A stretch of 64,000 bases of DNA from an uncultured Opitutia bacterium. Lineage in GTDB: Bacteria; Verrucomicrobiota; Verrucomicrobiia; Opitutales; UBA953. A program made the position numbers and the translations under genes. Below, in pieces: positions 8,099 through 31,710 of the stretch (positions are counted from its first letter, which is position 1; each line of letters begins with the position of its first letter). The notes under the pieces are model-generated. The model did not search any database. It was not told the origin of the DNA and worked only from the letters and a program-made list of their open reading frames with translations. The DNA lies in contig CAMFKE010000010.1 in assembly GCA_945957395.1 (NCBI GenBank), positions 1 through 64,000 on the forward strand. The letters are read 5' to 3'.

Positions 8099-8128
8099 GG
8101 GGATCGAGAGTTGGGATTTTTAGAATTT

Positions 8129-8253
8129 AACCACAGAGGTCACGGAGGTCACAGAGGAGGCGCAGAGGATTCGGGGGAACCCGAGATGAACGACACGGGG
8201 CATCTTCGGAATAATCCCGCTCAAAACTCTGTGTCCTCGGTGAACTCTGTGGT
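8129..8253. repeat. solo CACAGAG-type inverted repeat (possible non-autonomous element)
   Basis: Left arm 8129-8156 and right arm 8227-8253 are reverse complements at 24 of 27 positions. Both are built from degenerate 9-mers of the form ACCACAGAG / TTCACAGAG / GACACAGAG. The ~70-base interior holds no gene, only a small TCGGG...CCCGA hairpin. The same arms, more exactly matched, bracket the GxxExxY gene at 29990-30444. The element fills the gap between the giant protein gene and the vWA gene, where it would also fold as a long hairpin in the operon mRNA. Confidence 0.8.
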
Positions 8254-8274
8254 GATAAAGCGAATACGGGGTGC

Positions 8275-13944: not shown

Positions 13945-14225
13945 AGGATTCAGGGTTCAGATTTCAGGGTTCAGCCGGGCAGGACGGGTAAACGCCGACT
14001 CCCGGCCTTTTTTTGGCACAAGCGACCTCAACGCCACAGCAAGGACCACGAAAAGCGCCAAACACACGAAACACCCCGCCCCAATCCGGCATCGGGCAGA
14101 CGCCCTCTTGTGCCCACGGGGAAGCCGGCGAACCGCCTCACCGGGAGACTTTCGTGTGTTTCGTGACTTTCGTGGTTAAAAAACCGGGGCAAGCTCAGCC
14201 GGGGCGCCCCTGATTCCTGAAATCA
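13945..14225. repeat. nested inverted repeats filling the clpP-rhomboid gap
   Basis: The whole 303-base gap is explained by two nested palindromes. The outer arms are TTCAGGGTTCAG tandem motifs at 13945-13974 and the complementary CTGATTCCTGAAATCA at ~14210-14225. The inner arms are ACCACGAAA / CACACGAAA motifs at 14044-14073 and their complement TTTCGTG... at 14150-14177 (24 of 28 paired). The centre is a GC-rich 75-base segment without the AAAACGGT core seen in other elements. One element type appears to have inserted inside another. Confidence 0.7.
13974..14014 (+). terminator. possible rho-independent terminator after clpP
   Basis: GCCGGG (13974-13979) pairs with CCCGGC (14001-14006), followed by a seven-T run (14008-14014). 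The loop is long (21 bases) and the stem only six base pairs, so strength is uncertain. It lies just inside the outer repeat arm. Confidence 0.45.
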
Positions 14226-28466: not shown

Positions 28467-29996
28467 CTACGAAAGCGCCTCCTCGAAGACGGCCTTCATG
28501 GCCTCGAAAGGCTCGGCGCCCACGGCGATGCGAATGAGTTCGGGGTCGAGTCCGCCGTCGAGCAGCTCCTTGCGCCCCTCGGCGTTGCTCACGAGCTCGT
28601 AGCGCGAGAGGTACATGAAGGGCACGACGATGGTGAAGGTGACGCCGAAGCTCGGGCCCTTCGGGCACCGGATGCGGTCGTAGAAACGGGCCACGGGGCC
28701 GTGCAGTTCGATGGAGAAGAGCGAACCGGGCCGGCGCGGGCCGCGAGCGATTTGCGCGTAGTGCGCGGCGGTCTTCTCCGAATACGCCCAGTGCACGCGG
28801 CGCACGGCCGGGTGCGTCGAGAGCCACGCCACCAGCTTCTCGCAGTTGGCGTTGATGGCGTCGGAGACCTTTCCCATGTCGCCGATCTGCGCGGCGAGCC
28901 GCGCGAGGTCGCGCGCATACGGCGCCTCGCGGTGGCGCGCCAGGCGAGAACGCAGCGCGTCGGCGTGGGGCGACGCCGGATTCACGGCCACGGCGCCGAC
29001 CATCACATCGCCGACATTGCCGGCGTATTTCGTGAGGCTGGCGACCACCAGGTCGGCGTACGGCAGCACATCCACATTCACCGGACCGACCGAGGACGGG
29101 TCGAGCAGGCGCACCACGCCGTGCTTCAGGCACAGCGCGGAAAGCCACCCGGCGTCCACGGTGTGGATGAGCGGGTTGGTGGGCAGTTCCGAGATGACGG
29201 CCGCGATGCGGTCGCCGTTCTCGGCGAAGAATTTCTCGATGGCCGCCTTGTCGAAGACATCGGCGAAGAACACATGGCGCTCATCCGGCGCCAGGAACTT
29301 CTTCAGGATCTCCGGCGTGTCCACATACAGCCAGCCGAGCTGCACCCAGATCGTGCGGCCGCGCGCGCGCTGCATCTCCCGCGCGGCGACAAACGCCGTA
29401 TGCATGGCGTTCATACCGGCGCGGCACAGCGCGATGTCCGCGCCAGCGGCGGGCGCGAAACACGGGGCGAGCGCCTCGCGCACGCGCGCCTCGGCGTCGC
29501 CGGCGTAAGCCGCCTCGGGCTCCGCGCAAGCGAGGACGCCGGAGGCGAGCAGGATGTCCTCGGCCTGGCGCGAGCTGATCTGCACGCCGGTGTGCTGCAG
29601 GTACTTGCCCGCGCGCGACACGACCTCCGCCGGCTCGGTCGCCCCGAGGCTGACCAGGAACCAGTCGCCGCCCGGCGCGGCGTCCACGCGCGCGTCGCGG
29701 GCGCCGGAGAAGGCCACGGTGTCGTCGGCCGCGCGGCGCGAGCACACGGGGAACAGCGCGCGACCGGCGAGCCCGAGGGCCTTCGCGAGGTCGAGCGCGG
29801 CGCGCTCGACGTACGGGTGGCGCTTGAAACGCGGGTATCCGGTTTTCACCTGCGCGTGGGTCTCGCGGCGGGCCTCCTCGTAGCCGATGAGGTCGTCCAT
29901 GGTCGGCAGGCTCACGACCACCGCGTGAGTGCAGTCCGGCACGCGCGCCCCGAGCGGGTGATGCTTCAGTTGCGAAGAAAGCTTTCCGATTTTCAC
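28467..29996 (-). CDS. Cys/Met metabolism PLP-dependent enzyme (cystathionine gamma-synthase-like)
   Basis: About 509 residues. VVVSLPTMDDLIGYEE near the start and the PLP lysine in VVASLTKYAGNVGDVMVGA place it in the Cys/Met-metabolism fold-type I family. The usual SVDNTFATP segment is replaced by RLLDPSSVGPVNVD, and the protein is ~120 residues longer than typical bacterial MetB, as in the long fungal-type members. Likely chemistry is gamma-replacement or elimination on an activated homoserine or cysteine derivative. No ATG precedes the conserved start; the best initiators are GTG codons at 29996 and 29999, which lie inside the left arm of the CACAGAG element. The frame upstream of that is antisense to the GxxExxY gene's own frame and is not coding. 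Confidence 0.8.
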   Translation of the reverse strand: MKIGKLSSQLKHHPLGARVPDCTHAVVVSLPTMDDLIGYEEARRETHAQVKTGYPRFKRHPYVERAALDLAKALGLAGRALFPVCSRRAADDTVAFSGARDARVDAAPGGDWFLVSLGATEPAEVVSRAGKYLQHTGVQISSRQAEDILLASGVLACAEPEAAYAGDAEARVREALAPCFAPAAGADIALCRAGMNAMHTAFVAAREMQRARGRTIWVQLGWLYVDTPEILKKFLAPDERHVFFADVFDKAAIEKFFAENGDRIAAVISELPTNPLIHTVDAGWLSALCLKHGVVRLLDPSSVGPVNVDVLPYADLVVASLTKYAGNVGDVMVGAVAVNPASPHADALRSRLARHREAPYARDLARLAAQIGDMGKVSDAINANCEKLVAWLSTHPAVRRVHWAYSEKTAAHYAQIARGPRRPGSLFSIELHGPVARFYDRIRCPKGPSFGVTFTIVVPFMYLSRYELVSNAEGRKELLDGGLDPELIRIAVGAEPFEAMKAVFEEALS

Positions 29997-30444
29997 CACA
30001 GAGTTCACAGAGGACACAGAGTTTGGGAGAGGGGGCTCAGAGGCTGCGGCGGATGATGCCGTCCTTGAGCGATGCCGTGTGGAAGTTGATAAGAAGTCCG
30101 GTTTTCTTGTTCGCCAAACGGAGATACGAGAGGAGTTGGGCTTCGTGTACGGGCAGGAGCTTTTCCACGGCTTTAAGTTCAAGGATGACCGCATCCTCGA
30201 CCAACAGGTCGATTTTGTAGCCGGCATCGAGTTCGATGCCGTCGTAAACGACGGAAACAGGAAGCTGACGGGCGACTTTGAATCCGGCTTTCTTGAGTTC
30301 GTGTTCGAGGCAGACCTCGTAGGCGCTTTCCAGCAACCCCGGCCCGAGCGCAGAGTGGACATGCATGGCGCAACCGATGATGCGGTGAGTCACTTGATCA
30401 GACTCGGCCATGCTCTGTGTCCTCCGTGAACTCTGTGGTGAAAA
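29990..30444. mobile_element. CACAGAG inverted-repeat element carrying a GxxExxY gene
   Basis: Arms at 29990-30021 and 30413-30444 are reverse complements at 31 of 32 bases and consist of degenerate 9-mers (ACCACAGAG, TTCACAGAG, GACACAGAG). Between them is only the GxxExxY gene: its ATG is one base from one arm and its stop 15 bases from the other. The same arms without the gene occur at 8129-8253. No target-site duplication is obvious. The arrangement looks like a nuclease gene travelling with its own terminal repeats, comparable in logic to REP/RAYT units; mobility is inferred. Confidence 0.6.
30037..30411 (-). CDS. GxxExxY family protein (PD-(D/E)XK-like)
   Basis: 124 residues, the usual length for the family. 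The namesake motif is GLLESAY (residues 25-31) in HSALGPGLLESAYEVCLEHEL. A PD-(D/E)XK-like active-site pattern follows: DAGYKIDLLVEDAVILELKAVE, giving D...ELK. The C-terminal LLSYLRLANKKTGLLINFH is the conserved family end. The biochemical role is unsettled; a nuclease fold is expected. The gene is tightly enclosed by inverted repeats (29990-30444), between lysA and the PLP enzyme gene on the same strand, and so looks inserted into an older gene pair. Confidence 0.9.
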   Translation of the reverse strand: MAESDQVTHRIIGCAMHVHSALGPGLLESAYEVCLEHELKKAGFKVARQLPVSVVYDGIELDAGYKIDLLVEDAVILELKAVEKLLPVHEAQLLSYLRLANKKTGLLINFHTASLKDGIIRRSL

Positions 30445-30459
30445 ACGAACGAGGCGCGC

Positions 30460-31710
30460 TCAGACCTCGTTCTGCAGAATCTGCTCGAGGGTCTGGCGGC
30501 GGCGGATCACCCGGTAGGCGGCGCCGTCGGAGGCGAGGAGCACCTCGGGGGCCTCGGGGAAGCTGTTGTAGTTCTTCGAGCTCATCGCGGCGCAGTAGGC
30601 GCCGGCGCCTTCCATCACGAGCAGGTCGCCGGGGGCGGCTTCGGTGAGCGTGCGCGGCGCGATGCCTTCGGGGTCGCCGGGCGCGCAGGTCACGAGGTCG
30701 CCGGATTCGCAGCAGTGGCCGACCACCACATAGTCGCGCGTGGCGCCCGTGGGCTTCTGCGGGACCACCACGGTGGCGTGCTGGGAGCCGTACAGCGAGG
30801 GGCGCAGCACCTCGGTCATGCCGGAGTCGATCTTGAGGAAGACGCGGCCGGCGGCGCCGGTGTCCACCACATCGGTGACGGTGGTGAGCACCGCGCCGGT
30901 GTTGGCCACGAGGAAGGTGCCGGGCTCGATTTCGAGCTTCAGCTTGCGACCGGTCTCGGCGGCGAACTGGACGAAGGCGTCGCGGATGGGCGCGCCGCAC
31001 TTCTGCAGGTCCGTGCCCTTCTCGGCGGCCACGCGGGCCACCTTGAAGCCGCCGCCCAGGTCGAGCGTGGTGACTTCGGGGAACTTCTTCACGAGCTCGA
31101 GCGAGAGCAGCGAGGTCTTCTGCCAGACCACGGGGTCGCTGCCGGAGCCGATGTGCGTGTGGATGCGCACGATGCGCAGGCCGTGCTTCTTCGCGATGGC
31201 GGCGACCTCGCCGGCGTATTCATGCCAGATGCCGAAAGAGGAGTCGGGGCCGCCCACATTGGTCTTGCCGTTGGCGCCGGAGCCCGCTCCGGGATTGAAA
31301 CGCACGCCCACCTCGGTGCCGGGGAATTTTTCGCCGTAGCGTTCGAGCTGGCGCAGCGAGCAGGCGTTGATGAGCACGCCCTGCTTCACCAGGTCGGGGA
31401 AGAACTCCGGCAGCTCCTGCGTGGACAGCGAGATGGACGCGGCGGGCACGCCGGCCCTCATCGCGCGCAGCGCCTCGAAGCCCGAGGAGGCGTCGAAGTG
31501 CAAACCCATGGAGGAGAAGAGCTTGAGAACCGCGGCGTTCGGGCACGCCTTCATGGCGAAGCGCACGGTCAGCCCGTAGGCGTTGGGGAAGGCCAGCGCG
31601 GCGGCGGCCTGCGCGCGCAGCGCGGCCTCCGAGTACACATAGGCGGGCGTGCCGATTTCAGCCGCGATGCGGCGGGCGGTCTCGGGCGTGAGGAAGCGGA
31701 GCTGTTCCAT
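30460..31710 (-). CDS. lysA: diaminopimelate decarboxylase (fold-type III PLP)
   Basis: 416 residues. It decarboxylates meso-diaminopimelate to L-lysine, or a related diamine-forming reaction. The PLP lysine is Lys54 in VRFAMKACPN. The Gly-rich phosphate-binding segment is DLGGGFKV, and the substrate/dimer motif is HCCESGDLV (~330-337), followed by GAYCAAMSSKNYNSFPEAPEVL typical of LysA. Related carboxynorspermidine decarboxylases share parts of this, but the GAYC and NSFPE segments favour LysA. The stop is 15 bases from the repeat arm of the GxxExxY element, and a 372-base gap lies upstream. Confidence 0.9.
   Translation of the reverse strand: MEQLRFLTPETARRIAAEIGTPAYVYSEAALRAQAAAALAFPNAYGLTVRFAMKACPNAAVLKLFSSMGLHFDASSGFEALRAMRAGVPAASISLSTQELPEFFPDLVKQGVLINACSLRQLERYGEKFPGTEVGVRFNPGAGSGANGKTNVGGPDSSFGIWHEYAGEVAAIAKKHGLRIVRIHTHIGSGSDPVVWQKTSLLSLELVKKFPEVTTLDLGGGFKVARVAAEKGTDLQKCGAPIRDAFVQFAAETGRKLKLEIEPGTFLVANTGAVLTTVTDVVDTGAAGRVFLKIDSGMTEVLRPSLYGSQHATVVVPQKPTGATRDYVVVGHCCESGDLVTCAPGDPEGIAPRTLTEAAPGDLLVMEGAGAYCAAMSSKNYNSFPEAPEVLLASDGAAYRVIRRRQTLEQILQNEV

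Follow-up and report, generated by a model that had tools for sequence, protein, structure and literature searches.

In the RAYT/REP systems, a single small nuclease gene lies between two inverted repeats, gene-less doublets of the repeat occur, protein and repeat covary, and there is no clear target-site duplication (PMC2817692, PMC3116915). A small open reading frame between inverted repeats is also found in the intervening sequences (IVS) of 23S rRNA (PMC4990558), and Xanthomonas carries heptamer repeats, e.g. GGGAATC, that have a period of 7 and no gene linked to them (PMC4692102). Searches of the open-access literature found no description tying GxxExxY/PDDEXK_3 proteins or the arm sequences reported here to repeats. 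The present analysis concerns a 455-bp unit in a contig of an uncultured Opitutia bacterium (phylum Verrucomicrobiota; GCA_945957395.1, CAMFKE010000010.1), within a stretch of 64,000 nucleotides referred to below as the window. With a probability of roughly 0.7, this unit is a minimal mobile element whose nuclease would recognise the repeated units that make up its own arms and would act in trans on pairs of arms that enclose no gene.

Like a RAYT with its REPINs, the GxxExxY gene is flanked by two inverted repeats, gene-less inverted doublets lie elsewhere in the genome, and protein and repeat covary; to this extent the RAYT/REP-like plan that was suggested in the initial annotation of this DNA holds. 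Unlike RAYTs, however, the GxxExxY protein belongs to the PD-(D/E)XK and not the HUH/Y1 nucleases; its arms consist of three non-palindromic units of ~9 nt that do not fold alone and have no GTAG head; and several GxxExxY genes with different units can occur in a single genome. GxxExxY elements are also present in genomes that have no Y1 protein. Lacking an HUH enzyme and palindromic repeats, the GxxExxY element follows the same plan without being a member of the RAYT/REPIN group. With insertion sequences and their MITEs the element shares terminal inverted repeats, a single gene and gene-less derivatives, one of which retains a gene remnant, but it has no DDE, serine or tyrosine transposase. 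With the Xanthomonas GGGAATC repeats (PMC4692102) it shares short iterated units that are intergenic and often form convergent inverted pairs.

Structure of the element and its insertion site

The features of the element, its neighbours and two gene-less elements of the window are collected in Table 1. GxxExxY is the only gene between the arms. Its open reading frame starts 1 base away from the right arm and stops 15 bases short of the left arm; the geometry described initially (the pairing of the arms, the distances of ATG and stop, and nothing else inside) is right to the base. In a looser version the arms extend to 45 nt with 87% pairing (29987-30031 and 30403-30447). The arms are iterated, CACAGAG occurring three times, once every 9 nt, a point absent from the initial annotation, as are the two gene-less elements of like build elsewhere in the window. 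The inverted-repeat score of the element is 30, and a score of at least 25 is reached in just 0.09% of 2123 shifted windows. An Rfam search of the window gave no match to a known RNA family.

Table 1. Positions in the window of the element, its neighbouring genes and two gene-less elements.
Feature	Position	Strand	Description
Left arm	29990..30021	+	T-rich lead, then 3x CACAGAG at 9-nt spacing; sequence TTTTCACCACAGAGTTCACAGAGGACACAGAG
Right arm	30413..30444	-	Inverted copy of left arm, 31/32 bases
GxxExxY gene	30037..30411	-	124 aa; predicted Cas4/RecB-like PD-(D/E)XK nuclease; active site E27, D67, E77, K79, Q91
lysA-like gene	30460..31710	-	PF02784/PF00278; upstream neighbour of element
PLP enzyme gene	28467..30000	-	Cys/Met-metabolism PLP enzyme, PF01053; downstream of element; exact start uncertain
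Gene-less element 1	8128..8256		CACAGAG arms; intergenic; folds as one long hairpin
Gene-less element 2	14045..14178		CACGAAA-type arms; intergenic

Both neighbours lie on the same strand as the GxxExxY gene, and profile matches confirm the earlier assignment of the interrupted pair as lysA and a PLP enzyme. The insertion has removed the usual upstream start region of the PLP gene. The left arm (29987-30031) contains a GTG in the reading frame of this gene and may therefore now provide the gene's start codon.

The lysA-PLP junction is free of the element in all 27 same-family relatives in which both genes are readable, the distance from lysA to PLP being 93-121 nt in these relatives and 563 nt in the window's genome; the insertion is thus not one that is conserved in all relatives, an outcome that would have spoken against mobility. 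Five species of another genus (G295, G365, G303, G366 and G321) share, at one site, a GxxExxY element whose arms are of the ACAGGAT type. In G173, which was compared with four filled sisters and is without the element, the site is clean and the flanking genes are 5 nt apart; this empty site may either never have been filled or have lost its element later.

Alignment of flanks, which had been proposed as a way to find a target-site duplication, a mark of classical insertion sequences and MITEs, yielded none above random pairing of flanks in 104 elements with blurred ends. Since the sister genomes are 74-84% identical, they are too distant for a target-site duplication to be read. The plasmid search covered 8 records, too few for near-identical pairs of filled and empty sites.

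The enclosed protein is a predicted PD-(D/E)XK nuclease

In profile searches the window protein matches TIGR04256 (GxxExxY; E 8.8e-45; 151.8 bits, cut-off 35) and PF13366 (PDDEXK_3; E 8.3e-43; 145.9 bits, cut-off 22), PF13366 being the only domain matched. It keeps the GxxExxY motif and the PD-(D/E)XK site (E27, Y30, D67, E77, K79 and Q91), and E27, D67, E77, K79 and Q91 recur in 98-100% of the GxxExxY genes with arms. Structure prediction (pLDDT 96.5) gives a restriction-endonuclease-like fold, for which the closest structure is that of the Cas4 protein SSO0001 (4ic1; Foldseek probability 1.0), with a Z of 10.1 over 99 residues in structural alignment to 4ic1_G (VIA-align); lambda exonuclease, Hjc and restriction enzymes rank below SSO0001. 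The PD-(D/E)XK-like pattern noticed at the outset is thus upheld by an intact active site, by both profile matches and by the predicted fold.

The predicted fold and the D...ExK...QxxxY motif are shared with Cas4, lambda exonuclease and RecB-like nucleases. Unlike Cas4, however, the GxxExxY protein stands alone at 124 aa, its sequence similarity to Cas4 is weak (E 0.002; PADLOC reports a weak Cas4 alone), no invariant Cys for an iron-sulphur cluster is present among 39 homologues, and its neighbours here are lysA and the PLP enzyme, with no cas genes adjoining. Searches with the window protein of the PDB by sequence, of PHROGs, and of phages by tblastn gave no match. GxxExxY is present in 174 of the 289 sampled genomes of the phylum, and the window's genome has seven PF13366 genes.

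Inverted arms enclose GxxExxY genes in many phyla

Arms were scored by the best inverted alignment between the 250 nt upstream and the 250 nt downstream of a gene, with a threshold of at least 15, and control windows were obtained by shifting along the same loci. By this measure inverted arms enclose 70% of 196 GxxExxY genes, sampled within the family, more widely in the phylum and in other phyla, versus 0.66% of 2123 control windows; in a later set of 94 further genes the values are 81% and 0.6% of 811 controls. Most GxxExxY genes elsewhere thus do have arms; the opposite had been named in the initial annotation as a refuting outcome. In named organisms outside the phylum (Acidobacteria, Proteobacteria, Planctomycetes, Chloroflexi and Bacteroidetes), arms are found at 27 of 39 GxxExxY genes.

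The arms share a common build: a 7-nt unit (approximately CRCVRAD) is repeated at a spacing of 8, 9 or 10 nt, most commonly three times per arm, and the outer boundary reads T-T-A-A-C followed by the first unit. The unit itself varies by gene. In the window's genome, five of the seven PF13366 genes lie between inverted arms and have five different units (CACAGAG, CGCCAAG, CGCAAAG, CACAGAT/CACGGAT and CGCCGAT). The earlier expectation that the same inverted repeat would flank GxxExxY genes therefore holds for the build of the arms and not for the sequence of the unit.

Among the loci examined, which were mostly selected for GxxExxY, 75 convergent arm pairs surround a GxxExxY gene and just two convergent pairs of 300-600 nt are without one. 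The span of the 75 pairs is 427-470 nt (5th-75th percentile) and is filled by the gene, so the arms are not placed at random relative to it.

Arms (score at least 14) are present at 146 of the 182 genes whose active site is intact and at 1 of 14 inactivated genes (Fisher p 4e-8), a comparison in which most of the 14 form one related group and thus represent few independent losses. Several of the 36 intact genes under the threshold have weak arms. The relatives that have lost the active site (L007, L063-L065, L074-L077 and L092-L097) have DCR-like residues in place of ELK and are, as a group, single-copy and armless; they are possibly a domesticated or structural form.

Covariation of protein and repeat unit

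The more alike two proteins are, the smaller is the distance between their units (Mantel rho -0.47, permutation sd 0.03), and the nearest protein neighbour shares the unit in 50% of cases versus 10% by chance. Joint inheritance of gene and arms could by itself explain this correlation. Shared ancestry was removed by the use of path-disjoint contrasts on the protein tree; in these independent contrasts, exchange between A and G at unit base 5 tracks exchange between other residues and Thr at residue 7 by 13-0, Thr7 going with G. This rule was fixed in writing before the hold-out loci were fetched. In the hold-out, base 5 is G in 36 of 63 overall and in 17 of the 18 proteins with Thr7 (Fisher p 1.4e-4), and a non-Thr residue 7 is a poor predictor, base 5 being A in 26 of 45. 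For all data the result is 16-0 (p 3e-5), i.e. 16 of 16 informative independent contrasts, for a pair that is the best of about 600 column-residue tests over three unit positions.

Because the covariation persists in independent contrasts, the GxxExxY protein probably reads its own arms by contacting the repeat that encloses its gene. The proposal that the protein acts on its own repeats thus gains indirect support from the residue-base covariation and from the loss of arms together with the active site, while cutting and transposition themselves are steps that we infer. For unit bases 2 and 4 no protein column survives multiple testing. Residue 115, considered as a code for unit base 7, was rejected: its raw association is strong, but of only 2 independent contrasts one agrees with it and the other disagrees.

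Gene-less elements and genome-wide distribution of arms

Over about 26 nt, the right arm of the gene-less element at 8128-8256 matches that of the gene-bearing element at all positions but one. The gene-less copy folds with a z of -6.5; a single arm does not fold, its fold energy being about 0. Among the loci examined there are 50 gene-less convergent pairs with a median of 137 nt. Of 30 loci picked by arm pattern alone, two have a GxxExxY gene and the rest have gene-less arms, which indicates that most arms belong to gene-less elements, as is the case for REPINs. In genome G006 a 23-mer, CACGAAGGCACGAAGACACGAAG, is found at the resident gene and in several other contigs, so that gene-less copies bear the exact arms of a resident gene. 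At one locus (L471, 1466-1641, genome G273) the last 28 GxxExxY codons lie between arms, and no full-length copy was found in G273; this remnant is what internal deletion of a gene-bearing element would leave, and L471 would be an internal-deletion derivative. Remnants at L109 and L156 both lie inside complete genes and were discarded, leaving one of three hits. In the window's genome, a 7-kb stretch (L038; G000:C8, about 146000-153100) is dense with gene-less pairs and single arms of several different units (CGCCAAG, CACGGAG, CACAGAT and CGCAGAG), which lie nested and in tandem and resemble a BIME cluster.

Arms were counted by searching a generic three-unit pattern in the 289 genomes of the phylum. 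In class-level genomes (n=95) the median number of hits is 78 (5-333) with GxxExxY and 1 (0-16) without it (AUC 0.99, one borderline genome with a GxxExxY hit of E 9.6e-4 being classed as without). Family genomes with an inactive GxxExxY copy alone have 6 (G005) and 3 (G019) hits. Among the genomes that carry GxxExxY, those with more copies of the gene do not have correspondingly more arms (rho 0.23, p 0.09). About 10 of the 289 genomes have 23-78 hits and no GxxExxY over the cut-off; the drafts concerned are G149, G192, G219, G260, G269, G273, G301, G343, G349 and G003. A search for GxxExxY in arm-rich genomes apparently without it found fragments only, and in these drafts the gene may be lost or unassembled, or another driver may be at work.

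Proposed mobility of the arms and alternative explanations

One alternative is that the arms are moved by another host enzyme, e.g. a Y1/RAYT or IS transposase, with GxxExxY as a passenger that is often caught between them. Y1 transposases are indeed common in the phylum (218 of 289 genomes), and some genomes have arms but no GxxExxY. However, the window's genome has 94 arm hits and no PF01797 (Y1_Tnp) match in the whole genome, G240 and G304 have 190 and 193 hits and no Y1, and genomes with at least 14 Y1 and no GxxExxY have no arms; Y1/RAYT as the driver of the arms is ruled out by this presence and absence. The passenger explanation also leaves the residue-base covariation and the joint loss of arms and active site unexplained, and gene-sized convergent pairs nearly all contain GxxExxY, albeit in loci mostly chosen for it. 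We consider it unlikely.

To the same degree improbable is that the protein is an arm-binding regulator or a structure-specific nuclease with a host- or self-protective role (through operator-like iterons, hairpin processing or a selfish restriction-like gene), the repeats having spread by ordinary duplication and recombination. Iterated direct repeats beside a start codon resemble iterons or operators, covariation attests to recognition and not to transposition, and a target-site duplication was not found. On the other hand, two observations are what mobile units give: gene-less pairs lie at a distance from the gene, in numbers from dozens to hundreds, and presence or absence between gene neighbours is exact and gene-sized.

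A third alternative places the unit at the RNA level, by analogy with the intervening sequences of 23S rRNA: the arm stem would be cut from transcripts and the open reading frame would be a by-product. The unit and these sequences share a small open reading frame between inverted repeats and a scattered distribution, and a parallel is offered by the free-standing PF05635 genes of these genomes (23S rRNA IVP, a four-helix bundle). In a set of 30 such genes from 28 genomes (L189-L218, including G000:C8:24299 and C5:155752; outside rRNA), 67% lie between inverted iterated arms versus 0 of 399 control windows (score at least 15), and the window's genome has ten PF05635 copies. Their units (AGAAGTC, GGTAAGC, AGCTTAA and others) are heptamers that recur strictly every 7 nt (autocorrelation 0.63 and 0.61 at lags 7 and 14), versus ~9-nt units at a spacing of 8-10 for GxxExxY. 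This parallel suggests a wider principle, and as a lead only, PF05635 elements are a possible source of heptamer repeats like those of Xanthomonas (PMC4692102). As an account of the element in the window, however, the RNA-level explanation is very improbable: GxxExxY is unrelated to the S23/IVP protein (PF05635), the unit lies between protein genes and not in rRNA and has no Rfam match, arms are found on either strand and also without a gene, and selection maintains the active site. Chance, or a terminator hairpin of the ordinary sort, can be dismissed, for although inverted repeats are common in intergenic DNA, fewer than 1% of same-locus control windows reach the arm score, 370 nt separate the two arms, and one arm alone does not fold.

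Discussion

The nuclease-borne mobile unit proposed in the initial annotation is supported by arms at 70-81% of GxxExxY genes and by empty sites in relatives, together with the gene specificity of the arms, a unit that tracks the protein, co-occurring gene-less copies and the joint loss of active site and arms. The chemistry of movement we infer as follows. The GxxExxY nuclease would bind the iterated units of its own arms directly, the arm pair marking the ends of the element, and its PD-(D/E)XK site would cut DNA at or near the arm ends, the substrate probably being the hairpin into which the paired arms would fold when the DNA is single-stranded. The freed element would be rejoined elsewhere in intergenic DNA without target-site duplication. 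The same nuclease would act in trans on gene-less arm pairs, which would multiply as miniature elements, as REPINs do for RAYTs or MITEs for insertion sequences.

The GxxExxY element appears to be a hitherto undescribed type of mobile element, one that also scatters short copies without the gene through genomes. The broader view, that GxxExxY elements form a separate class of transposable element (with a lone Cas4-like nuclease and a simple residue-to-base code, spread over many phyla and the source of much short intergenic repeat DNA), to which heptamer arms with four-helix IVP proteins would be a parallel class, is in our judgement an even bet.

The GxxExxY family is widespread, and the literature searched assigns it no role; the link to repeats offers it a testable function. 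The link would also point to a source of a large class of bacterial intergenic repeats that lack an explanation, and a stand-alone PD-(D/E)XK nuclease would join the enzymes with a possible part in mobilising DNA. The connection between residue 7 and the unit base would provide a natural series for the study of sequence recognition by such nucleases.
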